Shown: in pieces, positions 5,549 to 22,836 of the stretch
Position numbering within the stretch: the first letter of the stretch is position 1
How the letters are laid out: each line of letters begins with the position of its first letter
Assembly: GCF_004803915.1 (NCBI RefSeq)
Contig: NZ_CP039396.1
Coordinates: 3,348,001-3,412,000 of the forward strand
Source of the DNA: Duncaniella dubosii
GTDB taxonomy: Bacteria; Bacteroidota; Bacteroidia; Bacteroidales; Muribaculaceae
Reading direction: 5' to 3'
DNA length: 64,000 bases
Notes under the pieces: model-generated
The model's database searches: none
Told to the model about the DNA's origin: nothing
What the model saw: only the letters and a program-made list of their open reading frames with translations
Position numbers and translations under genes: made by a program

Positions 5549-5734
5549 TTACAGCGTTTCAAGCTGCTGCCTTGTGACGGTATAGAAGCGTCCCACTCTC
5601 CTTATCGGCTCATACCGACACTCCCGATTGTAGTTCAGTTGGTAGGTGGTGTATGTAAGTCCGTTCGGTGCAGGTGTGAGCTTCCAGCACTCCTGCAATA
5701 CCTTTCTTACTTGGTATTTCTCCGCCTTGACATA
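5549..5734 (-). pseudogene. Primase-helicase, C-terminal piece separated by inversion
   Basis: The minus-strand frame starting at the IS66 boundary reads TYVKAEKYQVRKVLQECW and ends TRQQLETL stop at 5549. Its first codons repeat the end of the primase-helicase half at 18173-19200 (NTYVK). Joining 18173-19200 to 5726-5549 after removing one copy of the 8-bp duplication gives a continuous 401-codon frame with no correction. This is therefore the missing tail, now about 13.5 kb away in opposite orientation. It has no start of its own in native sequence. Confidence 0.9.
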
Positions 5735-5794
5735 GTACAACCGTCCGCGACAGCAGGTATAGCTTAAAAAAATAGCCGTCCAGGTTTTGGGCGG

Positions 5795-7396
5795 CTATTT
5801 TTGTGAGAGTTTCCAGCGGTCGGGAAGCAGGTCGCGGTATTTTTCGATCGGGGTGTTTGGCGGCCATGCGGCACATCGGTCGATTATGTCGCAGAAGTAG
5901 TCGAAGACGTTGACTCCGCAGCGGTGGCAGGTGATCGCAAGAGAGTGGTACAGGGCGGCGGCTTCGGCTCCGGAGTGGGAGCCGATTGTAAGTCGGCGAC
6001 GGGTCAGGGATATGTAGCGGTTGATTCGCTCGACTTCGTTGTTGTCGAGTCTGTAGGTGGGTGAGGCAAAGATGCGTGGTATCTCGTCCCATTGTTTGAG
6101 TGCATGTTCGGTGGCGGCGAGCAGCGGGTCGTCGGGTGGCACGCCGATGCGGTCTTTGACTGCTGTCAGTCTCATGCGGATTTTCTCGAGCATCACCTTG
6201 GAGTATCGTTGTCTCCACTCAAGGTGCTTTCCCGCCGTCCATCCGTCTTTGCCTATGCGGTGCTGATGCTCGAAGTGGTAAAGGAGTCCGAAGAGCTTTG
6301 CTATTTCCTGCGCCTTTGGATTGTCTTTCAGATCGAGAAACTTTCGCTTGATGTGCTGCAGGCATGGCAAGCGTTTTATCCCGCTCATCCCACCGATTCC
6401 GATATGCCGGTATCCCGAGTAATAGTCGCACTGGAAGGCTCCGTTGAAGCCTTTTATGTGTTGCTCGAAGACTTCGGCCGAGCGGGAGCCGTCGTCATAG
6501 AAGAAGTACACAAGCCCGGTTGTCATGCCGACGAACACCCATATGTAGCCTTTCTTGATCTTTCTTCCCGAAGGAGTTGCCACCTGCAGCCGCACTTTCT
6601 GATAGGTCTCGTCACCGCAGATATAATTGTCCGCGACTATTGCCTGACCCAGCGCCTTGTATAGATTTTCCAGATGTACCCTTACCTTACTTACGAGCTT
6701 CTGTGCGGTGCCTTTGTCAAGGTCGAAGCCGTGGGCACGGAAGTATTCGACAGCATTTTCAAGTGGCATGCAGTGGAGATAGCGTAGCTCGGCGAGTCCG
6801 GCTATGAAGGAAGATGTATACTGCGAGTTAAGCAGCGGTGTGGCGGGTGCGGAACCTTTGTATATTTTCTCGTCCTGCACGTATTTTCTGACCTTGTAGA
6901 TAATTTTTTTGAAGCGCATCGGCTCCATGACGTAGCGCACGACATCGCACTCGCCGATAAACGTCGCCGCCTCGGGATTGAAGTCCGGACTGTCAGGCTC
7001 CACTATAATGGTCTCCACCTCACACTCCGGATGCGTCTTCCTTTTGGCGCCGTTGTTGGTACGTTTCTTCTCTGGCTTCTGCTGTCGAGTTTCGGATGTG
7101 GCAGGAGTCGTCACCGGTTTCTTCTGACGCTCCGACGGCGAGCCCTGCAGACGCTGCACTGCCTGACGCGCGGCTTTCTCTTTGCTCAGTTCCGCACTTT
7201 TGCCTTTCATAGCCTCCTCCATTGAGGCCATTTGCTTGCGCAGTTCATCTACAGTCGCCACAAGCTTCTCGTTGGTCGACTGCAGCTTTTCATTGGATAA
7301 AGTAAGCGAGCTGACAGAGGCCAACGCCTCGTCGAGCCGCCCTTGAAGGAACTCGATCTGACGTTGCAGAAACTCTATCAACTCGTTCTTTTTCAT
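5795..7396 (-). CDS. tnpC: IS66 transposase TnpC (copy 2)
   Basis: Same 533-residue protein as copy 1, including Ile in the MRFKKIIYK segment where copy 3 has Phe. All catalytic Asp/Asp/Glu positions are intact, so this copy should encode an active enzyme. Confidence 0.95.
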   Translation of the reverse strand: MKKNELIEFLQRQIEFLQGRLDEALASVSSLTLSNEKLQSTNEKLVATVDELRKQMASMEEAMKGKSAELSKEKAARQAVQRLQGSPSERQKKPVTTPATSETRQQKPEKKRTNNGAKRKTHPECEVETIIVEPDSPDFNPEAATFIGECDVVRYVMEPMRFKKIIYKVRKYVQDEKIYKGSAPATPLLNSQYTSSFIAGLAELRYLHCMPLENAVEYFRAHGFDLDKGTAQKLVSKVRVHLENLYKALGQAIVADNYICGDETYQKVRLQVATPSGRKIKKGYIWVFVGMTTGLVYFFYDDGSRSAEVFEQHIKGFNGAFQCDYYSGYRHIGIGGMSGIKRLPCLQHIKRKFLDLKDNPKAQEIAKLFGLLYHFEHQHRIGKDGWTAGKHLEWRQRYSKVMLEKIRMRLTAVKDRIGVPPDDPLLAATEHALKQWDEIPRIFASPTYRLDNNEVERINRYISLTRRRLTIGSHSGAEAAALYHSLAITCHRCGVNVFDYFCDIIDRCAAWPPNTPIEKYRDLLPDRWKLSQK

Positions 7397-7474
7397 GGTG
7401 TAAAGTTACAAAAAATATCTGACATTTGCAACTTTCCACGCCATTTATTTATTTGATTAACAAATTATTAAGCC

Positions 7475-7831
7475 TTATTTTACGGCCATTCTGAAGCGAT
7501 TTTCGACCATCACCTTCACAGGCGTGAGGCCCCTCATCAGCATATAGAAATCGTCCCATTGGAGCCTGCGCACGCCGTCATCGCCCTTTTTGAGCACCTC
7601 CCGGAAACGGCCTCGCGACAGTCTTTTTGTGTACATCAAAAATCCGTCGCCATCCCATTTCAACGCCTTCATGGTCTTGCGGTCCTTTGAGAAAAACACA
7701 TACACATCGCCCGATGCCGGAGAATGCCCCTTCCACGACCACACCATCTGGGCCAGACCCCGGATGCCGTAGCGCATCGATACCGGCTGCCGGCATACCC
7801 AGAGCCGCATATCCGCCTCAAGACTCCACAT
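7475..7831 (-). CDS. tnpB: IS66 accessory protein TnpB (copy 2)
   Basis: 118 residues, identical to the protein of copy 1, overlapping the end of tnpA in the same way. It lies 78 bases before tnpC. Confidence 0.85.
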   Translation of the reverse strand: MWSLEADMRLWVCRQPVSMRYGIRGLAQMVWSWKGHSPASGDVYVFFSKDRKTMKALKWDGDGFLMYTKRLSRGRFREVLKKGDDGVRRLQWDDFYMLMRGLTPVKVMVENRFRMAVK

Positions 7832-8234
7832 CACTCCTGCGTGTCATGACATCCACCAGAAGCGCCAGCCCCTCCGCGCTTATCTCTCCCAGACTCACGC
7901 CTCGGCCCCAACCGAGTTCGATGTGCACGTCACGCACGACACTGGTGGCACCGACATCCCGGCTCTCATCCGCAACCTGAATACCGGGAACCTTAACCTC
8001 CCGGAATAACGGCCCGCCACCTTCCCGCGACGAATCCGGTCTCTCCGGCAGACTGCGTTGATAATCGCTTATGCTGATTTTGCGGCGCCGAAGCCACTCA
8101 TAAAGCCGCTGGACGTTGACGCCGGTACCGGCACAGAAACGGTTCAATGCGATATAGCCGTCTGTCTCGCATTGATTCTTGTAACGCGTCCATGTCTCTG
8201 AATAGACATCGGACAAAGACTTGTTATAACCCAT
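7818..8234 (-). CDS. tnpA: IS66 accessory protein TnpA (copy 2)
   Basis: 138 residues, identical to the protein of copy 1. Its promoter region lies at the element's right end, next to the interrupted receptor half, and points away from that half. Confidence 0.8.
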   Translation of the reverse strand: MGYNKSLSDVYSETWTRYKNQCETDGYIALNRFCAGTGVNVQRLYEWLRRRKISISDYQRSLPERPDSSREGGGPLFREVKVPGIQVADESRDVGATSVVRDVHIELGWGRGVSLGEISAEGLALLVDVMTRRSDVES

Positions 8235-8304
8235 GATTCTTTTTGTCGACAAAGATACAACTCTCTTTCGGAGTTCGTCAATATGCTATCGCGGATGGTT
8301 GTAC

Positions 8305-10654: not shown

Positions 10655-10691
10655 TGTTAATGAATAACCTCAAATGTTTAATTATAATCTT

Positions 10692-11966
10692 ATGAACAAG
10701 GTACTCATTGTTGATGCCTCCGAATCAGACCGTCGGCTTATGTCGGGCTTGCTTGTCAAGTCCGGCTATGAGCCGATTGCAGTCGAGACTATGGAGGCAG
10801 CAAAGGACGAGGTGGCGAAACTGCCACCGGGCGCAGTGATTGTCGCGGCGATGAAATTCGTCCGTGGCACAGCACAGGAGTTAATCAACTGGCAGAAGAC
10901 TGAGGGATACGGTTTTCCCGTAGTCGCCATAGTGGACAATCTCAACCCATTGGATATTGCCGATGTGATGAAAGACGGCGGTGCCGTCAACATCATTCAG
11001 CGTCCGGCAATGGACAAGCAGCTTGTCGAAACAGTGGGCAGGTATGCAAGACCGGGCAGAACAATGCTGTTACTCCCTGACGAGCTTATACCACGCCAAA
11101 GCGAGGCATTTGCCGTGATTGAACGGGCAATAAGAAATATTGCCGCAACGGATGTCAATGCCGTCATTTTCGGCGAATGCGGCTCTGGAAAAGAGCAGAT
11201 TGCAAAAGAGATTTACAGGCTAAGTTCACGGTCACAAAAGCCTTGCACCGTCATAGAAGCCGGCGGCGCGGCACTTGTCGGCAACCACGACCCTGCAAAT
11301 TTGCGCAGCGAAGTGCTTAACCGTATGGAAGGGTACTTCAAGAAGGCTGACGGCGGTACGATCATAATCAAGAACGTGCAGTTGCTGACCTTCGAGAAAC
11401 AATCGGTGCTTCTGCACATACTTGAAAACGAGCATCCGAATGTGAGGGTTATATGCACCGCAGACCCCGAACTGCGCCGTATGGTGTCTGAAAAGACGTT
11501 CCGCCCAAATCTGTTCTATATTCTCCGGCAAATTGATATAACAGTGCCGCCATTACGGGAGGTGACCGAAGACATCGTGCCGTTGTCAGACTATTTCCTG
11601 ACACATTTTGCCCACAGCAAAGGACAGCACAGGAAAAAGCTCGATGCCTCGGCAGTCAAAGCGTTGAAGCTGCACCCGTGGCCCGGCAATGTAAGGGAAC
11701 TTAAAGATACCGTACTTTATGCCGCCTTCCATTCAAAAACCGATGTAATATCGGCAGCCGACCTCAATTTCAGCCAGTCGGAGCCGGATGCCGATGACAG
11801 CCTTGTTCTGCGCAAGCCGCAAAAAGACAAGGAGAAAATCATTGAGGCGTACCGTCGCAGTGGCTCTTGGACAGGTGCGGCAAAGCTGTTGGGGATCTCG
11901 GAACGCGCTCTGATAGAACAGCGTAAAAAACACTGTATCGGCAAGAAGGGCGAGCCGGAGGTTTGA
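10692..11966 (+). CDS. NtrC/RteB-like regulator with degenerate receiver
   Basis: 424 residues. Residues 1-115 fold like a response-regulator receiver (KVLIVDASESDRRLM), but the phospho-acceptor position reads AVIVAAMKF, with Ala where Asp is expected. Residues ~145-350 form an AAA+ domain with Walker A GECGSGKE and a Walker B-like GGTIIIKNV. The GAFTGA loop that contacts sigma-54 is absent; ALVGNHDPANLR occupies that region. The C-terminus has a Fis-type helix-turn-helix (TGAAKLLGISERALIEQRKK). It resembles RteB-type regulators of Bacteroides conjugative transposons in layout. It probably acts without phosphorylation and without sigma-54. The ATG at 10692 is preferred to an upstream one at 10674 because the receiver begins there. 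Confidence 0.75.
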   Translation: MNKVLIVDASESDRRLMSGLLVKSGYEPIAVETMEAAKDEVAKLPPGAVIVAAMKFVRGTAQELINWQKTEGYGFPVVAIVDNLNPLDIADVMKDGGAVNIIQRPAMDKQLVETVGRYARPGRTMLLLPDELIPRQSEAFAVIERAIRNIAATDVNAVIFGECGSGKEQIAKEIYRLSSRSQKPCTVIEAGGAALVGNHDPANLRSEVLNRMEGYFKKADGGTIIIKNVQLLTFEKQSVLLHILENEHPNVRVICTADPELRRMVSEKTFRPNLFYILRQIDITVPPLREVTEDIVPLSDYFLTHFAHSKGQHRKKLDASAVKALKLHPWPGNVRELKDTVLYAAFHSKTDVISAADLNFSQSEPDADDSLVLRKPQKDKEKIIEAYRRSGSWTGAAKLLGISERALIEQRKKHCIGKKGEPEV

Positions 11967-11992
11967 CAGCTCACCAAAAATCACTAACTTTG
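11962..11992 (+). promoter_or_regulatory. Promoter of structured RNA A
   Basis: TTTG (11962-11965), 19-base spacer, TAACTTTG (11985-11992). The -33 box overlaps the stop codon of the NtrC-like gene. It predicts a start near 12000. Confidence 0.65.
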
Positions 11993-11999
11993 CAGTGAT

Positions 12000-12210
12000 T
12001 TTGAAATAGTAGCGATTGGAGAGCCAATCGTTTATAACATATATCATAACATAACACCGCATTTTGTTTAAGTGAAAATCTGGTACATTGGAACTTGTAA
12101 GAGCAAATGCGTGAAAGTTGTGCTATGCGCAAGCATAGCGTGCTGTCACGTTCTCTTACACGGGTTTACCAGAGCCTTCACTTATGAACTGTGATTAGCA
12201 CGCTATTTTT
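12000..12210 (+). ncRNA. Candidate structured RNA A (pair with 15767-15982)
   Basis: There is no coding frame. A 5' hairpin CGATTGG-AGAG-CCAATCG lies at 12013-12030. A long nested helix spans 12070-12183: AAGTGAA/TTCACTT, TCTGGTA/TACCAGA, TAAGAG/CTCTTA, CGTGA/TCACG and an apical GCTATGC-GCAA-GCATAGC stem with a GNRA loop. ATAGCGTGCT (12136-12145) can also pair with AGCACGCTAT directly before TTTTT at 12206-12210. The minus-strand unit at 15982-15767 shares the promoter box, ATAACATAAC, the apical stem and the 3' GCACGCTA-TTTTT end, with compensatory changes in three helices. Function unknown. Confidence 0.7.
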
Positions 12211-12305
12211 CTACCTTATCTGATCCAATTCATGTTGTATCCTATCTCTATTAATTATTTATCACACCTTTCATCGTCAATACCGCGAACTTTCCGTATT
12301 ATAGA

Positions 12306-12337
12306 TTTGTTTTGCAACTGAAAAATAGTTACATTTG
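12306..12337 (+). promoter_or_regulatory. hicAB promoter
   Basis: TTTG (12306-12309), 20-base spacer, TACATTTG (12330-12337), 16 bases before the hicA start. Confidence 0.6.
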
Positions 12338-12353
12338 TGCCAAAATAAAATGA

Positions 12354-12608
12354 ATGGGAACAAAAGAAAAATTGATAGCCCGATTCTCAACATTGCCCAG
12401 CGATTTCACGTGGGAGGAAATGAGACGTTTGCTTGTTGCTTTGGGATATGTTCCGGGCAACAAGGGCAAGACCTCCGGCTCCCGTGTAATATTCAAGGGT
12501 GCCGGTTTGAAGCCCATAATGCTTCACAAGCCCCATCCCGGCAATATCATCAAAGGGTATGTTATGAAACAGGTTTATGATTATCTTAAAAATGAAAGAC
12601 TGATATGA
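12354..12608 (+). CDS. hicA: HicA-type mRNA interferase toxin
   Basis: 84 residues with the HicA layout: an N-terminal helix pair (FTWEEMRRLLVALGY), central strands (GSRVIFKGAG) and the catalytic His segment LHKPHPGNIIKGYVMKQV. HicA proteins have a dsRBD-like fold and cut mRNA when not held by HicB. The ATG at 12354 fits the family N-terminus better than an overlapping reading in another frame. Its stop overlaps the hicB start by ATGA, which is typical of coupled toxin-antitoxin pairs. Confidence 0.88.
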   Translation: MGTKEKLIARFSTLPSDFTWEEMRRLLVALGYVPGNKGKTSGSRVIFKGAGLKPIMLHKPHPGNIIKGYVMKQVYDYLKNERLI

Positions 12609-12943
12609 ATACACTGAAATATAAGGATTTTATAGGCTCGGTAGCCTTCAGCGAAGCCGATAATGTATTTTTTGGTAAAATTGAAGGCATTGACGGACTT
12701 GTAAATTTCGAGGGAGAGAGCGTTGCGGAACTCACCAATGCCTTTCATGAGGCAGTTGACGATTACCTTGCATATTGCTCCGAAGAAGGAATAGAGCCTC
12801 ACAAAAGCTATTCCGGCTCTTTGAACGTGCGTCTTACTCCCGACATTCACTCCCGTGTAGCTTACCTCGCAAAACAGGCTGGAGTATCCATCAACTCGTT
12901 CATACGCACGGCTGTGGAAAAACAGATTGCTGCCATGCTCTGA
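12605..12943 (+). CDS. hicB: HicB-type antitoxin
   Basis: 112 residues. The N-terminal HicB fold (YKDFIGSVAFSEADNVFFGKIEGI, FHEAVDDYLAYC) is followed by a C-terminal ribbon-helix-helix-like part (LNVRLTPDIHSRVAYLAKQAG, SINSFIRTAVEKQ), suited to DNA binding and autorepression of the pair. It overlaps hicA by 4 bases. It sits between structured RNA A and the ATPase gene. Confidence 0.88.
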   Translation: MNTLKYKDFIGSVAFSEADNVFFGKIEGIDGLVNFEGESVAELTNAFHEAVDDYLAYCSEEGIEPHKSYSGSLNVRLTPDIHSRVAYLAKQAGVSINSFIRTAVEKQIAAML

Positions 12944-13014
12944 AATAATCTAACGCTCCGAGCCTTATCGAATTCAACACGATATTATATTAAAATAGCC
13001 AATCAATAGAAGGA

Positions 13015-13081
13015 TATTGAATAAAATATTATCTATTTTATTCAATACAGAGATATAGCTGAATAAAATTAGCTATATTTG
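13015..13081 (+). promoter_or_regulatory. Operator-promoter region of ATPase gene
   Basis: TATTGAATAAAATA (13015-13028) and TATTTTATTCAATA (13034-13047) form a perfect 14-bp inverted repeat with a 5-base loop. A third partial copy, TGAATAAAAT, is at 13060-13069, and a TATATTTG -7 box at 13074-13081 precedes the ATG at 13101. The arrangement suggests a repressor or autoregulatory site. Confidence 0.55.
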
Positions 13082-13100
13082 CAGTCTAAAACAGATTGCA

Positions 13101-14338
13101 ATGAAGACAACGATACTCAATCAGCGGGCAGAGCGTGACGAACTTATGTCGCGCCCTTATCAGCAACGGCATACAAGGTATGACGCCGACGAGCTATTAC
13201 AAAATACGCTTATCAAACTTATAACCGGGCCTCGCCGAGTGGGCAAATCGGTATTTGCTCTGCTTATGTTGCAGGGCAAGAATTTCGCTTATCTCAATTT
13301 CGACGACAATCAGTTGCTTGAAAAATGGGATGAATACTTGGCGATGTCGGCACTTGAAGATGTCTATCCCGGCTATGACTTCATGCTGCTTGATGAAGTC
13401 CAGAATCTTCCCGCTGGGATCTGTGGGTCAGCAAACTCTACCGACGCGGCAAGAACCTCATAATCACGGGCAGTAATGCCAATATGTTGAGTCGCGAAAT
13501 GGCTACCGTTCTTACAGGGCGTTATCTCCAGATAGAAATGCTCCCGTTCAGCCTTGAAGAAACGATGAACTGGAAAAATGTCAATCCGCAACTGGAAGAA
13601 CAGGCTGCGCAGGCTATAACGCTTGCTGATGACTATATGCGCAACGGCGGTTACCCGGAAACAATCCCGGCACGTAGCATCACCAAGAGCTATCTTTCTA
13701 CGCTGTTTGATTCCATTCTGCTGAAAGATGTAGCCAAACGCCATAAGGTGAGGAACACCACCGACCTGTATAATCTTGCCACTTACCTGCTCTCCAACTT
13801 CTGCAACCCTATATCTGCAAATGACCTTGCCGGAGAGCTGGGATTGTCAAGTGTCGCAACGACAAAGAAATTCTGTGACTATCTGACAGAACCGTATCTG
13901 TTCTTCTACATGCCTCGCTTCAACAACAAACTGAAATTGATGACTAAAGCACCTAAAAAAGTGTATGTGGTTGACAACGGCTTTGTGCAAAGCACGGCTT
14001 TCAACCTCAGTGAAAACCTCGGCAGACTGTTGGAGAACCAAGTGTTTGTCGAATTGCTGCGCCGTGGCTATATTCCTGGTAAAACACTGTTCTATTACCG
14101 CACACGCAACGATAAAGAGATAGACTTCGTTACCCGCAAAGGCACAAAGGTCGAGCAACTGATCCAAGTCTGCTACGACATGACCTCCGAGAAAACCCGC
14201 AAACGCGAACTCGACGCCCTCGTCGAAGCCGCCGAAGAACTCCACTGCGACAACCTCCTTGTTATCACCAATTCGCAAGAAGAAAAAATCGAGTGGAAAA
14301 ATGAATTAATTTCAGCAATTACCGCCAATAAGTTTTAA
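13101..14338 (+). pseudogene. AAA ATPase with DUF4143 (one-base frameshift)
   Basis: Two consecutive frames encode one ~412-residue protein. The first has Walker A (ITGPRRVGKSVFALLML) and Walker B (FMLLDEVQNLP). It shifts near 13410-13416, where the other frame continues WDLWVSKLYRRGKNLIITGSN (through sensor 1), a winged-helix region (ANDLAGELGLSSVAT) and the C-terminal DUF4143 nuclease-like domain (NQVFVELLRRGY, KEIDFVTRKG). One missing base in a cccg-ctggg stretch explains the break. It may be a real mutation or an assembly indel. Such ATPases are common in Bacteroidota mobile DNA; their function is unclear. Confidence 0.85.
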
Positions 14339-14352
14339 TAGTAAAAATAAAT

Positions 14353-15198
14353 ATGAGTGACTTTACATATGAATTACCGGAAGATAAAGTTTTCTTCGAT
14401 GCCGTAATGTCAATACTTGCTCATGATATTCAGTATAGGGATACCGGATATTATCATCTCCTTAGAGATGGCTACTGTGAAATTTCAGATAGTAGTACAT
14501 TCTCACAAAAGAGATGGAATGCGATGTACACAACTGTAAATTTCTATATTCCCAAAGATGTCTTTGCCTCTAACGCTTCGTTGCTCCCTGAAGCTAAGAA
14601 CATACTATTAAAGGTCTGCCAAACAGTTATGCCTCCAAACGCAGGATATGATGTTATGAAGATTAACATATCTCCTTCCCTGAGTATTGGGCAGCACGAT
14701 ATATTGAACGATATTATTTCAACAGCTAACAATAGTAAATTAGACATTCTTTCTGATGATGTTAAACAGAAAGGTAAGGAAATGTCAGAATTATATGTGA
14801 CATTATATTGCGTTGAGAACTCATTGCGAAACTTTATTGATACCGTGTTGTCAAATGCTTTAGGCGACAATTATTTTTCTTTGATTTCTGTTCCAAACGA
14901 CATTGCGAAAGGAATTGCCACACGAAAAAAAGAAGAGAGTCAAAATAAGTGGTTACCGCTTCGTGGTGATAAAGACATATATTATTTGGATTTTATAGAT
15001 TTAGCTAAATTAATTCAAAATAATTGGGAGTATTTTAAAGCTTACTTTCCAAGTCAGGGGTGGATATCAACCAAAATTGAGGAGCTTTACAAAGTTCGAT
15101 GCTTAATCGCACACAATAGCTACGCTGGAGACGATGAGAAAGATATGGTTGCTCTTTATTACAAACAAATCGTTAAACAAATTGGGAGTCATATCTGA
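14353..15198 (+). CDS. Swt1-type HEPN domain protein
   Basis: 281 residues, AT-richer than its neighbours. The N-terminal ~130 residues are unrecognised. The C-terminal half matches the Swt1-like HEPN layout: helix YVTLYCVENSLRNFIDTVL, then SVPNDIAKGIATRKKEE, YYLDFIDLAKLIQNNWEYF and the motif VRCLIAHN, which carries the R-x4-H signature of HEPN ribonucleases. HEPN proteins of this kind occur in defence, toxin-antitoxin and phage-exclusion loci. It begins 14 bases after the ATPase stop, so the two may be co-transcribed. Catalytic activity is inferred only from the motif. Confidence 0.7.
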   Translation: MSDFTYELPEDKVFFDAVMSILAHDIQYRDTGYYHLLRDGYCEISDSSTFSQKRWNAMYTTVNFYIPKDVFASNASLLPEAKNILLKVCQTVMPPNAGYDVMKINISPSLSIGQHDILNDIISTANNSKLDILSDDVKQKGKEMSELYVTLYCVENSLRNFIDTVLSNALGDNYFSLISVPNDIAKGIATRKKEESQNKWLPLRGDKDIYYLDFIDLAKLIQNNWEYFKAYFPSQGWISTKIEELYKVRCLIAHNSYAGDDEKDMVALYYKQIVKQIGSHI

Positions 15199-15264
15199 AA
15201 TCGTATCAAAAATTTATTTCTGATCGTTTTTATAAGACAATATAATTTTGTATCTTTGTAATCC

Positions 15265-15457
15265 CAATGGAAATAATGGGGCAGAACATTGAAATAATGC
15301 CGTGTGCAATTCGTGAACAACGGAAATGGCGGCATTGCAATATTCTGAATACTACTTAGTTACAACGATATTCCGCAGTTCCAGGCGGATCACGATAAGA
15401 TTTATCAAATCGAAGGAAACCTCTGAAAATCAACGATTTTCGGAGGTTTTGCTTTTT
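15265..15457 (+). ncRNA. Candidate small RNA with own promoter and terminator
   Basis: A TATCTTTG -7 box (15250-15257) with a T-rich -33 region 19 bases upstream predicts a start near 15265. A strong terminator ends at 15457. The ~190 bases between hold no convincing gene, but they contain a 7-bp pairing AATGCCG/CGGCATT and a GATAA-gat-TTATC hairpin. It does not resemble RNAs A and B beyond general features. No known family recognised. Confidence 0.45.
15418..15457 (+). terminator. Strong rho-independent terminator
   Basis: CCTCTGAAAATC (15420-15431) pairs with GATTTTCGGAGG (15435-15446) in a 12-pair stem with a 3-base loop, followed by TTTTGCTTTTT. Confidence 0.85.
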
Positions 15458-15503
15458 GCCTCCCACCCTAAATCAGCGCAATATATGGCAATATCCGGTG
15501 TGC

Positions 15504-15546
15504 AAAAAGGGAGCAAGGAATTTTATACTGAAATTGCTCCCTTTTT
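15504..15546. terminator. Bidirectional terminator
   Basis: AAAAAGGGAGCAA (15504-15516) and TTGCTCCCTTTTT (15534-15546) are perfect inverted copies with A and T runs on both sides. The left arm recurs alone at 15742-15754. The rest of 15547-15766 shows no gene I can support. Confidence 0.7.
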
Positions 15547-15766
15547 AGAGGTTATTGGATTGCTTTTCAGTATTTTGCGCCGATTGTGATTGCATTTCTC
15601 CTGCTCCCAGAGGGAGCTTCCGAGGGAACGGTTTGCAGACATTTCGGTACTTTTGTCAAAGTATGCCTTACTCTGTATTCGGCTTGTCAACCACATGTCC
15701 GCACTGACTTTTTTAAGAATATTCCATTTGAATAATTGTTAAAAAAGGGAGCAAAATCGGGAAGGC

Positions 15767-15982
15767 AAAAACTAGCGTGCAATTCACGCCATCTCTCTTG
15801 AAGGTTCTGGACTACCTATTGTCGAAAAGGTGTGTATGCACGCTATGCAGTAAGCATAGCATAAGCATCACGCCAAGCTCGTTCTTATAAATTGTCCAGA
15901 TTTACAATAGAACTTATGCGGAAGTTATGTTATCCTATAAATTTGATGCGATTGACTCTACAACCGCAGTCTTTGCTATTTT
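15767..15982 (-). ncRNA. Candidate structured RNA B (pair with 12000-12210)
   Basis: On the minus strand the unit starts after TAACTTTG and ends GCACGCTAGTTTTT. Paired regions are: 5' hairpin GCGGTTG/CAATCGC (15948-15967), TCTGGAC/GTCCAGA (15894-15900 with 15806-15812), GGTGTG/CACGCC, ATGC/GCAT, and the apical GCTATGC-loop-GCATAGC (15842-15860). Compared with RNA A the first two helices differ in sequence but keep pairing, and the long-range pair TAGCGTGCA/TGCACGCTA replaces TAGCGTGCT/AGCACGCTA. A GCGTG-AATTG-CACGC hairpin before the T run can act as terminator. It faces RNA A across the HicAB/ATPase/HEPN cassette. Confidence 0.7.
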
Positions 15983-15997: not shown

Positions 15998-16194
15998 CTA
16001 CAAAATCTTTGGAATAACCGAGAAAAGAGGTTGAAATGTCACTGAAATGGCTATCATTAAAGCGTTTACAGTGCCAAATGAAGCCAACCGCAAAAAACGG
16101 GAAACGCAAAGGAAAGCAGTTCTATGAAGCAGAACGGTTTTCAAATCGTTACCCGAAGCGGGACGCATTTTTAACGCTCCCTGCATTGATTGCG

Positions 16195-16249
16195 CCGTTC
16201 TGCGCCGATTTGCTTATCAAGGTCTAACTCGTTGAGTAATAACTTTGCA
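16195..16249 (+). promoter_or_regulatory. Integrase upstream box, shared with primase-helicase
   Basis: This 55-bp stretch matches 18083-18137 at 38 positions without gaps. The conserved blocks are CCGTTCTGC, GATTTGC, TATCAAGG and TAACTTTGCA. TTTG lies 27 bases before the -7 box, so TATCAAGG occupies the place of a normal -33 element. Confidence 0.65.
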
Positions 16250-16264
16250 AACAAAAAAACGAGT

Positions 16265-17494
16265 ATGGCAAGAAGTACATTCAAAGTGCTGTTCTACATG
16301 AACGGCAGCAAGGAGAAAAACGGCATTGTCCCCATCATGGGACGAGTGACAATCAACGGGACTGTGGCGCAGTTCAGTTGCAAACAGAGTGTCCCGAAAA
16401 CGCTTTGGGACATCAAGGGCAACCGAGCCAAAGGCAAGAGCAAGGAGGCACGGGACATCAACCTCGCTTTGGACAACATCAAGGCGCAAATCATCAAGCA
16501 CTACCAACGCCTGTCCGACCGTGAAGCGTTTGTAACTGCGGAAATGGTGCGCAATGCCTATCAGGGCATCGGAAGCGAGTACGAGACATTGCTCAAAGCA
16601 TTCGACCGTGAAAACGAGGTGTTCAAGAAACGTGTCGGCAAGGACAGGGTTATGGCAACCTACCGTTCACGGGTGGTGGCGAGAAACCATGTGGCTGCGT
16701 TCATCAAGTCTTTCTATAGACGGATGGACATGTCCATGCTGGAGATTACGCCCGACTTCATCAAGGAGTTTGCCGCCTACCTCTCAACGGAAGCGGGACT
16801 GCACAACGGGACGATATGGGAAAAGTGTATGTGGCTGAAAGGTGTTGTCATGCGTGCGCACTTCAACGGGCTGATACCGAGAAACCCGTTTGCCCAGTTC
16901 CACATCAGCCCGAATGTGAAGGAGCGTGAATACCTGACGGAAGATGAACTGAAAGCGTTGATGACGCACGAGCTCGGGGATGCCAAGCTGTCCTATATCC
17001 GTGATATTTTCGTCTTCGCCAGCTTCACCGCCCTCTCTTTCGTGGACATCAAGGAACTGACCAATGACAACATCGTGGAAGTGAACGGTGAGAAGTGGAT
17101 ATTATCCAAACGGCACAAGACAAAAGTGCCGTTCCAAGTGAAGCTGCTGGATATTCCCTTACAGATAATAGAGCGTTACCGCCCCATGCAGGAGGATAAC
17201 CTCGTGTTCCCCAATCTCAACTACTGGTCTATCTGCAAACCTCTGAAAAAGGTGATGAAAGAGTGTGGGATAACAAAGGACATCTCGTTTCATTGCTCAA
17301 GGCATGGGTTCGCGACCCTTGCTTTGAGTATGGGTATGCCGATTGAGAGCGTGAGCCGTGTTTTGGGACACACGAACATAGTCACGACCCAAATCTACGC
17401 CAAAATCACAACGCAGAAGTTGGACAACGACCTTACCATGTTAGGCAACAGGCTGAACCAATCGTTTAACAACGTATCAATGGCAGGACAATGA
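16265..17494 (+). CDS. Tyrosine recombinase (integrase) of mobilizable element
   Basis: 409 residues, the usual size for Bacteroides integrases. The N-terminal arm-binding domain is at 1-90 (PIMGRVTINGTVAQF), a SAM-like core-binding domain to ~210, and the catalytic domain after. H-x-x-R is at HCSRHGFATL, GH at VLGHTNIVTT and the nucleophilic Tyr at QIYAKI. The first catalytic Arg position reads TALSFVDIK, with Ser, as known for IntDOT-like enzymes. The start at 16265 follows the promoter box and matches the N-terminus of relatives; an open frame extends upstream to 16190 but lacks similarity. The next gene overlaps it by ATGA. Confidence 0.9.
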   Translation: MARSTFKVLFYMNGSKEKNGIVPIMGRVTINGTVAQFSCKQSVPKTLWDIKGNRAKGKSKEARDINLALDNIKAQIIKHYQRLSDREAFVTAEMVRNAYQGIGSEYETLLKAFDRENEVFKKRVGKDRVMATYRSRVVARNHVAAFIKSFYRRMDMSMLEITPDFIKEFAAYLSTEAGLHNGTIWEKCMWLKGVVMRAHFNGLIPRNPFAQFHISPNVKEREYLTEDELKALMTHELGDAKLSYIRDIFVFASFTALSFVDIKELTNDNIVEVNGEKWILSKRHKTKVPFQVKLLDIPLQIIERYRPMQEDNLVFPNLNYWSICKPLKKVMKECGITKDISFHCSRHGFATLALSMGMPIESVSRVLGHTNIVTTQIYAKITTQKLDNDLTMLGNRLNQSFNNVSMAGQ

Positions 17495-19200: not shown

Positions 19201-19270
19201 GTACAACCATCCGCGATAGCATATTGACGAACTCCGAAAGAGAGTTGTATCTTTGTCGACAAAAAGAATC

Positions 19271-19687
19271 ATGGGTTATAACAAGTCTTTGTCCGATGTC
19301 TATTCAGAGACATGGACGCGTTACAAGAATCAATGCGAGACAGACGGCTATATCGCATTGAACCGTTTCTGTGCCGGTACCGGCGTCAACGTCCAGCGGC
19401 TTTATGAGTGGCTTCGGCGCCGCAAAATCAGCATAAGCGATTATCAACGCAGTCTGCCGGAGAGACCGGATTCGTCGCGGGAAGGTGGCGGGCCGTTATT
19501 CCGGGAGGTTAAGGTTCCCGGTATTCAGGTTGCGGATGAGAGCCGGGATGTCGGTGCCACCAGTGTCGTGCGTGACGTGCACATCGAACTCGGTTGGGGC
19601 CGAGGCGTGAGTCTGGGAGAGATAAGCGCGGAGGGGCTGGCGCTTCTGGTGGATGTCATGACACGCAGGAGTGATGTGGAGTCTTGA
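19271..19687 (+). CDS. tnpA: IS66 accessory protein TnpA (copy 3)
   Basis: 138 residues, identical to the other copies. It is read in the same direction as the interrupted primase-helicase half, from its own TATCTTTG box at 19248-19255. Confidence 0.8.
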   Translation: MGYNKSLSDVYSETWTRYKNQCETDGYIALNRFCAGTGVNVQRLYEWLRRRKISISDYQRSLPERPDSSREGGGPLFREVKVPGIQVADESRDVGATSVVRDVHIELGWGRGVSLGEISAEGLALLVDVMTRRSDVES

Positions 19688-20030
19688 GGCGGATATGCGG
19701 CTCTGGGTATGCCGGCAGCCGGTATCGATGCGCTACGGCATCCGGGGTCTGGCCCAGATGGTGTGGTCGTGGAAGGGGCATTCTCCGGCATCGGGCGATG
19801 TGTATGTGTTTTTCTCAAAGGACCGCAAGACCATGAAGGCGTTGAAATGGGATGGCGACGGATTTTTGATGTACACAAAAAGACTGTCGCGAGGCCGTTT
19901 CCGGGAGGTGCTCAAAAAGGGCGATGACGGCGTGCGCAGGCTCCAATGGGACGATTTCTATATGCTGATGAGGGGCCTCACGCCTGTGAAGGTGATGGTC
20001 GAAAATCGCTTCAGAATGGCCGTAAAATAA
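19674..20030 (+). CDS. tnpB: IS66 accessory protein TnpB (copy 3)
   Basis: 118 residues, identical to the other copies, overlapping tnpA and 78 bases upstream of tnpC. Confidence 0.85.
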   Translation: MWSLEADMRLWVCRQPVSMRYGIRGLAQMVWSWKGHSPASGDVYVFFSKDRKTMKALKWDGDGFLMYTKRLSRGRFREVLKKGDDGVRRLQWDDFYMLMRGLTPVKVMVENRFRMAVK

Positions 20031-20108
20031 GGCTTAATAATTTGTTAATCAAATAAATAAATGGCGTGGAAAGTTGCAAATGTCAGATATTTTTTGTAAC
20101 TTTACACC

Positions 20109-21710
20109 ATGAAAAAGAACGAGTTGATAGAGTTTCTGCAACGTCAGATCGAGTTCCTTCAAGGGCGGCTCGACGAGGCGTTGGCCTCTGTCAGCTCGCT
20201 TACTTTATCCAATGAAAAGCTGCAGTCGACCAACGAGAAGCTTGTGGCGACTGTAGATGAACTGCGCAAGCAAATGGCCTCAATGGAGGAGGCTATGAAA
20301 GGCAAAAGTGCGGAACTGAGCAAAGAGAAAGCCGCGCGTCAGGCAGTGCAGCGTCTGCAGGGCTCGCCGTCGGAGCGTCAGAAGAAACCGGTGACGACTC
20401 CTGCCACATCCGAAACTCGACAGCAGAAGCCAGAGAAGAAACGTACCAACAACGGCGCCAAAAGGAAGACGCATCCGGAGTGTGAGGTGGAGACCATTAT
20501 AGTGGAGCCTGACAGTCCGGACTTCAATCCCGAGGCGGCGACGTTTATCGGCGAGTGCGATGTCGTGCGCTACGTCATGGAGCCGATGCGCTTCAAAAAA
20601 TTTATCTACAAGGTCAGAAAATACGTGCAGGACGAGAAAATATACAAAGGTTCCGCACCCGCCACACCGCTGCTTAACTCGCAGTATACATCTTCCTTCA
20701 TAGCCGGACTCGCCGAGCTACGCTATCTCCACTGCATGCCACTTGAAAATGCTGTCGAATACTTCCGTGCCCACGGCTTCGACCTTGACAAAGGCACCGC
20801 ACAGAAGCTCGTAAGTAAGGTAAGGGTACATCTGGAAAATCTATACAAGGCGCTGGGTCAGGCAATAGTCGCGGACAATTATATCTGCGGTGACGAGACC
20901 TATCAGAAAGTGCGGCTGCAGGTGGCAACTCCTTCGGGAAGAAAGATCAAGAAAGGCTACATATGGGTGTTCGTCGGCATGACAACCGGGCTTGTGTACT
21001 TCTTCTATGACGACGGCTCCCGCTCGGCCGAAGTCTTCGAGCAACACATAAAAGGCTTCAACGGAGCCTTCCAGTGCGACTATTACTCGGGATACCGGCA
21101 TATCGGAATCGGTGGGATGAGCGGGATAAAACGCTTGCCATGCCTGCAGCACATCAAGCGAAAGTTTCTCGATCTGAAAGACAATCCAAAGGCGCAGGAA
21201 ATAGCAAAGCTCTTCGGACTCCTTTACCACTTCGAGCATCAGCACCGCATAGGCAAAGACGGATGGACGGCGGGAAAGCACCTTGAGTGGAGACAACGAT
21301 ACTCCAAGGTGATGCTCGAGAAAATCCGCATGAGACTGACAGCAGTCAAAGACCGCATCGGCGTGCCACCCGACGACCCGCTGCTCGCCGCCACCGAACA
21401 TGCACTCAAACAATGGGACGAGATACCACGCATCTTTGCCTCACCCACCTACAGACTCGACAACAACGAAGTCGAGCGAATCAACCGCTACATATCCCTG
21501 ACCCGTCGCCGACTTACAATCGGCTCCCACTCCGGAGCCGAAGCCGCCGCCCTGTACCACTCTCTTGCGATCACCTGCCACCGCTGCGGAGTCAACGTCT
21601 TCGACTACTTCTGCGACATAATCGACCGATGTGCCGCATGGCCGCCAAACACCCCGATCGAAAAATACCGCGACCTGCTTCCCGACCGCTGGAAACTCTC
21701 ACAAAAATAG
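20109..21710 (+). CDS. tnpC: IS66 transposase TnpC (copy 3)
   Basis: 533 residues. It differs from copies 1 and 2 only by Phe instead of Ile in MRFKKFIYK, outside the DDE residues. Because copies 2 and 3 exchanged ends, this single marker cannot by itself place the crossover. Confidence 0.95.
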   Translation: MKKNELIEFLQRQIEFLQGRLDEALASVSSLTLSNEKLQSTNEKLVATVDELRKQMASMEEAMKGKSAELSKEKAARQAVQRLQGSPSERQKKPVTTPATSETRQQKPEKKRTNNGAKRKTHPECEVETIIVEPDSPDFNPEAATFIGECDVVRYVMEPMRFKKFIYKVRKYVQDEKIYKGSAPATPLLNSQYTSSFIAGLAELRYLHCMPLENAVEYFRAHGFDLDKGTAQKLVSKVRVHLENLYKALGQAIVADNYICGDETYQKVRLQVATPSGRKIKKGYIWVFVGMTTGLVYFFYDDGSRSAEVFEQHIKGFNGAFQCDYYSGYRHIGIGGMSGIKRLPCLQHIKRKFLDLKDNPKAQEIAKLFGLLYHFEHQHRIGKDGWTAGKHLEWRQRYSKVMLEKIRMRLTAVKDRIGVPPDDPLLAATEHALKQWDEIPRIFASPTYRLDNNEVERINRYISLTRRRLTIGSHSGAEAAALYHSLAITCHRCGVNVFDYFCDIIDRCAAWPPNTPIEKYRDLLPDRWKLSQK

Positions 21711-21770
21711 CCGCCCAAAACCTGGACGGCTATTTTTTTAAGCTATACCTGCTGTCGCGGACGGTTGTAC

Positions 21771-22836
21771 TTATAATTTATCTTCAGCACATCATCTATA
21801 TTAAATGAATGTCCTGAGAATTGCTGTCCTATCAAATCGTTGATAGATCCGTCGCCATGAGGAAACGACGCACTTGCTATAAAAGCATTTTTAATATATC
21901 TATCTTTACCATTCAGCTTGTAGACCGCATGTGCTCCTACGAATTGCTGACGCATACCGGCTCTGTTCGACTCATCTACGACAAATCGAGAGATACTGTC
22001 CGCAAGATAAGCGGTTTGCTCTGCCGCCTCTCTTTTTTCTTTATCAAAAGGTAATTGAGATTAAACGCCAATGTCTTGTCTTCGTCTAACTTGAAAAGTT
22101 GATTTATCGACAGGCTATGTGAGTTGTTACGATATGCGTAAGTGTCATTCAGCCCCGGAGAATCAGGGAAAAGTATCCCCGTTCCGTAAGATGAATTGAA
22201 TGTCACGGGTGCACCAATATCCTGTCTCAAGTCATTGCCAATGTTGTTCGTCTTATAAACAGAGATATTTTGGGCTTTGCGCCGGAAATTCATGAGGGTG
22301 GCGGAGGCATCCCAAGATATATTGGGCTGTGTCCCGATTGCTGCTTGAAGTGTGGATGACCATATACCGAGAGCATTTTGTTTAAGCTTTATGTTCATAG
22401 CGGGAGCATTGCCGCTCTTCACTCCTTGCAGCAATTTCACATCCTGATGATTTTGCAGTACTTGAACTGAACCTATATCATTTGCATCGATATTTCTTGT
22501 AGCTACACCATAATTTCCGCCAAGCATATCAAGCCCCTCGATATAAAACTCATTTATCCATTGTCCGTTATAAGTTATCTGGCCATCGGCTTTTACTTCA
22601 ATACCCGGCATCTTTCGCAACAAGTCTTCAAGAGTCTTGTCGTTTTTACCTCTGTATGTAGCAGCAGAATACGAAATTGTATCGCCGGACTGTCGGATTT
22701 TTTTAGCAGTAACAATTACTTCCTTTAGTTCAAGGGCGTTGATAATTGAATCCAGTGATTCGGTACTGACCTCCTGCGCCATCGCCATAAGAGCGATGGA
22801 CACAAAGATGAATAGTATTTTGAATCGTTTGAACAT
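21771..22836 (-). pseudogene. TonB-dependent receptor, N-terminal half (frameshifted)
   Basis: Signal peptide (ILFIFVSIALMAMAQ), no carboxypeptidase-like domain, then a TonB plug: VIVTAKKIRQSGDTISY, LEDLLRKMPGIEV, EFYIEGLDMLGGNYG, VQVLQNHQDVKLLQG. The frame shifts at an A4 run (22046-22049); adding one base gives NLNYLFDKEKREAAEQ and continues to the IS66 junction at INYK. The barrel is at 8305-9597. The divergent kinase gene begins 131 bases away. The natural product would be an outer-membrane importer or sensor receptor; the substrate is not evident. Confidence 0.9.

Follow-up and report, generated by a model that had tools for sequence, protein, structure and literature searches.

An RNA Family of Bacteroidota with a Possible Attenuator Layout, Traced from Two Copies in Duncaniella dubosii

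Two Homologous RNAs in the Window

The 64,000-nt stretch of Duncaniella dubosii DNA analyzed here (contig NZ_CP039396.1, positions 3,348,001 to 3,412,000; the whole stretch is called the window below) carries, between the genes of an RteB-like sigma-54 activator and of a tyrosine recombinase, a hicAB pair and two structured RNAs, RNA A on the forward and RNA B on the reverse strand (Table 1). An earlier note, made from the sequence alone, had taken them for two copies of one new RNA; they are indeed found where it placed them and align along their full length, 173 of the 282 gap-free columns being identical (flanks included). Each fold beats 200 of 200 dinucleotide shuffles (z of -4.56 for RNA A and -5.65 for RNA B). 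Covariance model R2, built without either of them, matches RNA A at E=1e-7 and RNA B at E=1.1e-5, and in a scan of the whole window with this model, which holds distant relatives only, these two are the only matches at E<0.1 (the next best has 0.27); this independently confirms that the classes of the family described below are linked.

Rfam 15 returned, at the gathering thresholds, two tRNAs as the only matches in the whole window, and at E<=5 nothing in the window that overlaps RNA A or RNA B, the weak matches all lying outside them. No Rfam match was obtained for family RNAs of other loci either (18 and 15 loci at gathering, 20 loci at E<=0.5), which agrees with the earlier note, where no known family had been recognized. 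Judged by their sequences, RNA A and RNA B are confirmed as homologous structured RNAs of about 203 nt without an Rfam 15 match.

Distribution and Classes of the Family

A DNA search of the own genome with RNA A gives two additional clear copies besides RNA A itself. Within the genus 5 of 27 genomes match at E<=0.001, and in the family Muribaculaceae a search with RNA B finds homologues in 27 of 297 genomes (all genome tallies include the own genome). The covariance-model search of genomes of the order, which the earlier note had named beforehand as a check, was made with model R1, built from alignment A2, and gave matches in 79 of 393 genomes at E<=0.01. The weaker of them split into additional classes. 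In what follows, class 1 is represented by A2 (25 non-redundant copies), class 2 by A5 (18 sequences) and class 3 by A4 (24 sequences); A6 comprises 84 aligned R2 matches from 86 sources, and A7, 81 matches. Not included in A2 are two loci that differ in their 5' part (L025, L034), copies at least 97% identical to a retained one, three listed matches for which there was no locus, and two very short matches (L012 and L039).

Model R2, for which only the A4 sequences were used, matches 59 of 395 genomes of the phylum at E<=0.001, a tally for which only six candidates per genome were scored; fuller scoring gives 6-11 copies per genome in five genomes picked for their earlier high match counts, the own genome having 11. 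A DNA pattern scan of named genomes yielded at least 118 stretches, and R2 matches 79 of the 80 listed loci (81 matches). By their names we take these 80 loci to belong to Bacteroidota (Chryseobacterium, Flavobacterium, Bacteroides, Parabacteroides, Mucilaginibacter, Algoriphagus, and others), with one exception, a metagenome-assembled genome of Pelotomaculum (Bacillota), which is probably a binning error. Among decoys, viral loci with a chance hairpin (80 listed of 120), R2 finds two matches at E<=0.1; both exceed 107 bits and are probably real family members. Searches of phage records with RNA B and one class 3 RNA gave no match. Of six IMG/VR contigs examined, four that are catalogued as viral (L288, L273, L284, and L291; the others were L189 and L157) resemble conjugative elements and carry an rteB-like gene together with the RNA. 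The earlier note had overlooked this phylum-wide reach, and also that the distant members mostly lead genes while class 1 usually follows an RteB-like regulator.

Two peculiarities of single members were observed as well. A subgroup has an insertion of several tens of nucleotides, often hairpin-like, in the apical loop (L364-L367 in the own genome and L373-L378 in genome G400), and a tandem pair of copies occurs at L098:226-634.

Conserved Helices and Covariation

The RNA is predicted to fold into a hairpin P1, a core of P2a, P2b, P3, and P4, an apical hairpin P5, and a long-range stem PK (Table 1). PK crosses P2 and P4 and is thus a pseudoknot; it shares six columns with P5, so that the two cannot both form in full. 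As the local terminator hairpin of RNA A is weak (by eye), PK is its main terminator-like stem.

In A2, the nested helices P1, P2a, P2b, P4, and P5 are paired in 92.2% of 837 cells and show changes on both sides at 16 of 34 pairs; such double changes occupy 90 cells vs. 25.3 in shuffles (0 of 500 reaching this number), and pairing falls to 27.8-42.9% when the partners are slid by 1-3 columns. For PK, 96.9% of 225 cells over nine pairs are standard pairs, with both-side changes at three of the nine and in 21 cells vs. 5.6 in shuffles (again 0 of 500). P1, P2b, and PK, the three helices for which compensatory changes between RNA A and RNA B had been claimed, have therefore kept their pairing through both-side changes in the 25 homologues.

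Covariation was further evaluated with an R-scape-like test of our own, in which a G statistic with average product correction is compared with a tree-based null (parsimony substitutions re-placed on a FastTree tree). P2a has pairs below E 0.05 in A2, A6, and A7. In A2, two P2a pairs have E=0, PK pair 134-194 has E=0.02 and PK pair 136-192 has E=0.22; the same list also holds three non-complementary pairs with E of about 1, and P3 is poorly aligned there. In A6, every pair at E<=0.05 falls in P2a, P2b (two pairs), or P3, and in A7 eleven pairs pass (six of P2a, five of P3) with no further pair at E<=0.2. Both A6 and A7 were built with the nested helices in the model, which favors those helices, while PK was in neither model; moreover, the search pattern behind A7 fixes part of P2b and part of strand 3 (the 3' strand of PK), and A7 is uninformative for both. 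Significant covariation in P2a, P2b, P3, and one PK pair bears out the proposal of a structured RNA with compensatory changes, P2a and P3, overlooked previously, carrying much of this support. Neither a known Rfam family nor the loss of the proposed helices in further homologues, named in the earlier note as grounds for giving the proposal up, was encountered.

The support is unevenly distributed among the helices. The apical stem P5 exists, as had been stated, and it is nearly invariant in class 1, for which reason covariation lends it no support there. PK has standard pairs in 92-100% per position in A6, mostly invariant ones, so that covariation speaks for it only in class 1 and at one A5 pair (94% paired vs. 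59% expected). Three more helices were drawn by eye and are kept as candidates: P6 (GGY/RCC around the 3' strand of P2b), weak or uneven on the alignments with one pair present in 18 of 18 A5 sequences; P7 (the segment 5' of P2a with the one preceding P4), paired in a fraction of 0.47-0.84 in A6, near the column expectation; and P8 (GAAAA/UUUUC around the 5' strand of P2b), also weak or uneven.

Table 1. Coordinates in the window of the two RNAs, their elements and the neighboring genes.
Feature	Position	Strand	Evidence or remark
RNA A, -7 promoter box TAACTTTGCA	11985-11994	+	sequence
RNA A, model-defined, 202 nt	12009-12210	+	R1 181.8 bits (member of R1 by construction)
P1 hairpin CGATTGG/CCAATCG	12013-12019 with 12024-12030	+	both-side changes at 6/7 pairs, 25 homologues
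P2a outer helix AAGTG/CACTT	12070-12074 with 12179-12183	+	both-side changes at 5/5 pairs
P2b inner helix, possibly kissing, TCTGGTA/TACCAGA	12079-12085 with 12167-12173	+	A2: both-side changes at 3/7 pairs
P3 TGTAAGAG/CTCTTACA	12096-12103 with 12153-12160	+	RNA A fold; significant in A6, A7
P4 GCGTGA/TCACGT	12109-12114 with 12146-12151	+	81.3% of cells paired; both-side changes at 2/6 pairs
P5 apical hairpin, proposed antiterminator	strand 1 12120-12128 with strand 2 12133-12141	+	100% paired, class 1
PK long-range pseudoknot, proposed terminator stem	strand 2 12136-12144 with strand 3 12197-12205	+	exclusive with P5
RNA A, terminal U-tract	12206-12210	+	sequence
RNA B, -7 promoter box TAACTTTGCA	15997-15988	-	sequence
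RNA B, model-defined, 203 nt	15768-15970	-	R1 197.9 bits (member of R1 by construction)
RNA B, P5 strand 1	15862-15854	-	sequence, alignment A2
RNA B, PK strand 2	15845-15837	-	sequence, alignment A2
RNA B, strand 3	15781-15773	-	sequence, alignment A2
RNA B, U-tract, one G after strand 3	15771-15767	-	sequence
RteB-like sigma-54 activator	10674-11966	+	Pfam Sigma54_activat 3.5e-20, AAA_lid_14 2e-18
hicA and hicB, downstream of RNA A	12354-12943	+	Pfam HicA_toxin, HicB
Tyrosine recombinase, divergent from RNA B	16190-17494	+	Pfam Phage_integrase 9.3e-17

Competing Pairings of Three Strands

Strand 2 of the apical hairpin may pair either with strand 1 (P5) or with strand 3 (PK). In class 3, strand 1 (GCUCACGC) is approximately a copy of strand 3 (CCCACGC), both being complementary to strand 2 (GCGUGGGC). 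The 1:2 and the 2:3 pairing both reach -6 kcal/mol or lower in 199 of 207 alignment rows. The four alignments share members, and the rows correspond to 184 distinct RNAs, 181 of which have both pairings in at least one alignment and 176 in every alignment that holds them (one additional A5 member is too gapped to be measured, and the A7 pattern fixes part of strand 3 in these counts too). The mean energies of the two exclusive pairings are balanced, e.g., -13.2 and -12.8 kcal/mol in class 1, where a member's own strand 3 pairs better than those of other members (-12.8 vs. -10.3). Of the 8 nt that follow the last helix, five or more are T in 74 of 82 rows of A6 and 72 of 81 rows of A7. The idea of a switch, raised in the earlier note, is strengthened by the availability of both pairings in nearly all members, while the switching as such remains a proposal.

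Promoter Box and Neighboring Genes

Of 160 aligned members, 120 have the promoter-like box TAnnTTTG between positions -70 and +25 relative to the RNA start (0.06 expected per 95 nt). A6 and A7 together contain 159 unique RNAs, nearly all of them of class 2 or 3; the open reading frame (ORF) next to the RNA is co-oriented in 139 of these, opposite in 14 and absent in 6. The RNA ends 70 nt or less before this ORF in 62 of the 159, and TAnnTTTG is found in only one of these 62 gaps; the genes behind these short gaps are therefore probably dependent on read-through.

The genes concerned differ between the classes. For 16 class 2 members the wider surroundings were read, and in 14 of them the RNA is followed by a DHFR/RibD-type ORF; in class 3 the downstream genes are varied. 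Among 61 downstream proteins of A7 loci, Pfam detects the TonB plug in 11, sigma-70 region 4 in 6, RibD_C in 5 and thioredoxin in 5, along with many families that occur once. Upstream, small divergent ORFs number 94 for 164 aligned RNAs; 65 of the 94 form one BLAST cluster, and all seven of its members that were tested match Pfam helix-turn-helix (HTH) families at E<=0.01, five of them above the curated cut-off. Visual inspection of a few sequences gave no support for a conserved upstream ORF within the RNA. At four loci (L383, L433, L440, and L411) short ORFs just 3' of the RNA share a KPKNP/KPKKP-like C-terminus and are possibly a small peptide family.

In class 1, a gene of the RteB-like cluster ends no more than about 70 nt before the RNA at 22 of 31 sites, three of the remaining nine being contig ends. 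Four plasmid records match in a DNA search with RNA A, and gene order was read in two of them, one being CTn214 (GenBank OR675140). On both records it is tetQ, an ATP-binding protein at the rteA position, a sigma-54 regulator at the rteB position, the RNA, a DHFR family protein and an RteC-domain protein.

Discussion

With strands 1 and 3 able to compete for strand 2, a U-tract next to strand 3 and a gene at a short distance behind, the family has the layout of an attenuator. We therefore lean, with only a little more confidence than doubt, towards regarding the family as cis-acting transcription attenuators of about 200 nt, spread over Bacteroidota and riboswitch-like in layout, with PK as the terminator stem. 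In such an attenuator, the promoter would start the RNA and the core (P2a, P2b, P3, and P4) would fold, strand 2 of the apical hairpin pairing first with strand 1 to give P5. Strand 3, emerging just before the U-tract, would then capture strand 2, and the resulting PK stem beside the U-tract would end transcription; with the core undocked, P5 would hold and the polymerase would read into the gene behind. The starting point is what computation yielded (homology, conserved helices, both pairings, promoter box, U-tract, and position before genes), from which we infer that the 2:3 pairing terminates, the 1:2 pairing antiterminates and a signal selects between them. As would be expected of riboswitches, a cis position in a 5' leader is seen family-wide, if not cleanly for RNA A and RNA B, and, by sequence alone, the members appear to have two exclusive structures with an expression platform; the predicted own promoter and terminator would equally suit an intrinsically terminated small RNA.

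Several observations weigh against the attenuator reading. Outside class 1, foreign strand 3 is nearly as good a partner as the own one (-11.0 vs. -11.7 in A6, -11.7 vs. -11.9 in A7), and the pairing there accordingly rests on invariance, not on covariation. The U-tract is poor (four T or fewer) in 8 of 82 rows of A6 and 9 of 81 of A7. Class 1 RNAs often end in a local terminator hairpin (by eye), so that they may terminate without the pseudoknot, and several class 1 members lead no close gene or are followed by the promoter box of the next gene. Finally, the downstream genes are too diverse to suggest any ligand.

Some of these points would be accounted for by a free-standing small RNA that acts in trans, e.g., regulates excision or transfer mRNAs in conjugative elements, and came to precede genes by insertion near promoters. 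The promoter box and U-tract of its own would suit such an RNA, as would a next gene that is distant or preceded by a promoter box of its own (in the window and at several class 1 loci) and the lack of a near co-oriented gene behind RNA B. We nevertheless consider it rather unlikely for the family, given the 139 to 14 bias in the orientation of the next ORF and the 62 of 159 RNAs placed within 70 nt of an ORF with a promoter box in a single gap. Control of translation or of mRNA stability by a leader, with the 3' pseudoknot as the structural end of the fold, would better fit the members that lack a good U-tract and the many in which 100-400 nt separate the RNA from the ORF. It seems improbable, however, with a U-tract directly after the helix in about 90% and the three-strand competition available in nearly all members. 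That the element works as DNA or single-stranded DNA, i.e., as a recombination or transfer site, is suggested by its occurrence in conjugative elements and by the integrase gene nearby in the window, but is very hard to reconcile with the promoter box and U-tract in fixed orientation, the orientation bias towards the next gene, the acceptance of G-U pairs in the helices and the many copies that precede genes of other kinds.

If the family consists of attenuators, their input is best sought in a general cue, either a common metabolite or a protein that binds RNA, acting on top of gene-specific control; we favor this because the downstream genes are diverse and often have a divergent HTH regulator alongside or an RteB-like gene before them. 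A more detailed scheme, offered tentatively as one that may well prove wrong, is that the core, with its several pseudoknots, responds to a common metabolite or a stress signal by closing the long-range PK terminator. The RNAs would then be a phylum-wide riboswitch-like class, copies of which came to stand before operons of TonB receptors, extracytoplasmic function (ECF) sigma factors, and surface proteins with divergent HTH regulators alongside, and, in tetQ-type elements, between rteB and rteC as an extra gate.

The family resembles known riboswitches and attenuators in its promoter-proximal leader, compact core, competition of a 1:2 with a 2:3 pairing that ends at a U-tract, and position close before genes; it differs from them in that a long-range pseudoknot across the core is proposed to serve as the terminator stem, and in that its downstream genes share no common pathway and no Rfam family matches. 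Structured RNAs already described from Bacteroidota (Flavo-1, Bacteroidales-1, 6S-Flavo, BTnc005, FopS, and others) are named in the available part of PMC2864571 or in Rfam output. Like them, the family is structured and belongs to the same phylum, but none of the Rfam Bacteroidota RNAs matches a family RNA at gathering or at loose E-values. A promoter, a pseudoknotted RNA, a terminator, and then a gene is also the layout of type III toxin-antitoxin systems (ToxI). ToxI lies upstream of ToxN, as given in the consulted sections of PMC8040213. The family RNA, unlike ToxI, precedes TonB receptors, sigma factors, DHFR-like, secreted, and many other proteins and not one ribonuclease family; no ToxN/AbiQ-type ribonuclease is present among the 25 listed of the 43 Pfam families found in the 61 downstream proteins. 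RteR of CTnDOT, in the excerpts of PMC7366714 and PMC9299015, is encoded in trans, has a length of 90 nt and acts on the tra operon. It, too, is a small RNA from this kind of conjugative element; by these descriptions, to which the comparison is confined, it differs in length from the family RNA, which has about 203 nt. The family RNA lies between the gene at the rteB position and a DHFR-like gene and rteC.

No description of the family, or of an RNA between rteB and rteC, was found in the consulted main-text portions of the literature, including PMC10865816, PMC1976400, PMC10994844, PMC5418344, and PMC7160235. The 64 structured 5' regions of F. psychrophilum reported in the part of PMC9723704 at hand may include family members, and excerpts of PMC8040213 mention thousands of candidate RNAs.

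The absence from Rfam 15 of an RNA so elaborate and so common (59 of 395 sampled phylum genomes) would amount to a large gap in the regulatory map. Bacteroidota are a dominant phylum of gut and soil. For operons of TonB receptors and of surface proteins, the family offers a cis-element that can be tested, and the strand-competition model predicts simple mutants. In the tetQ-rteA-rteB ... rteC region, the protein regulators of which are well studied, the RNA has passed unremarked in the portions of the literature found; if the proposal is true, it would add a further gate to a transfer cascade that is among the best studied.

Neighborhood of the RNAs in the Window

The RteB-like gene, whose receiver match is weak (Response_reg 0.0075, below the cut-off), ends 42 nt before the modeled start of RNA A. 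The gap between RNA A and hicAB has two TAnnTTTG sequences, candidate promoters of hicAB itself, and no co-oriented gene lies close behind RNA B in the window; for these reasons the window's own copies may lack a coupled target gene. They are probably by-products of element rearrangement or else trans-acting.

Between the two RNAs, an AAA_14/DUF4143 gene at 13101-14338 is split across two frames. It is followed by a Swt1-like HEPN-domain protein gene (14353-15198), which, with the nearby hicAB, perhaps forms a small defense-like island. The stretch 15269-15450 (+), adjoining RNA B, matches Rfam BTnc005 at full length but weakly (25.8 bits, E=0.0059, far under the gathering threshold of 174.8) and may be another small RNA. 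The RNA region is flanked by near-identical multi-ORF blocks in opposite orientation, at 5610-8252 and 19253-21808, each with a 533-aa ORF and ORFs of 119 and 144 aa, which we take to be IS66-type copies.

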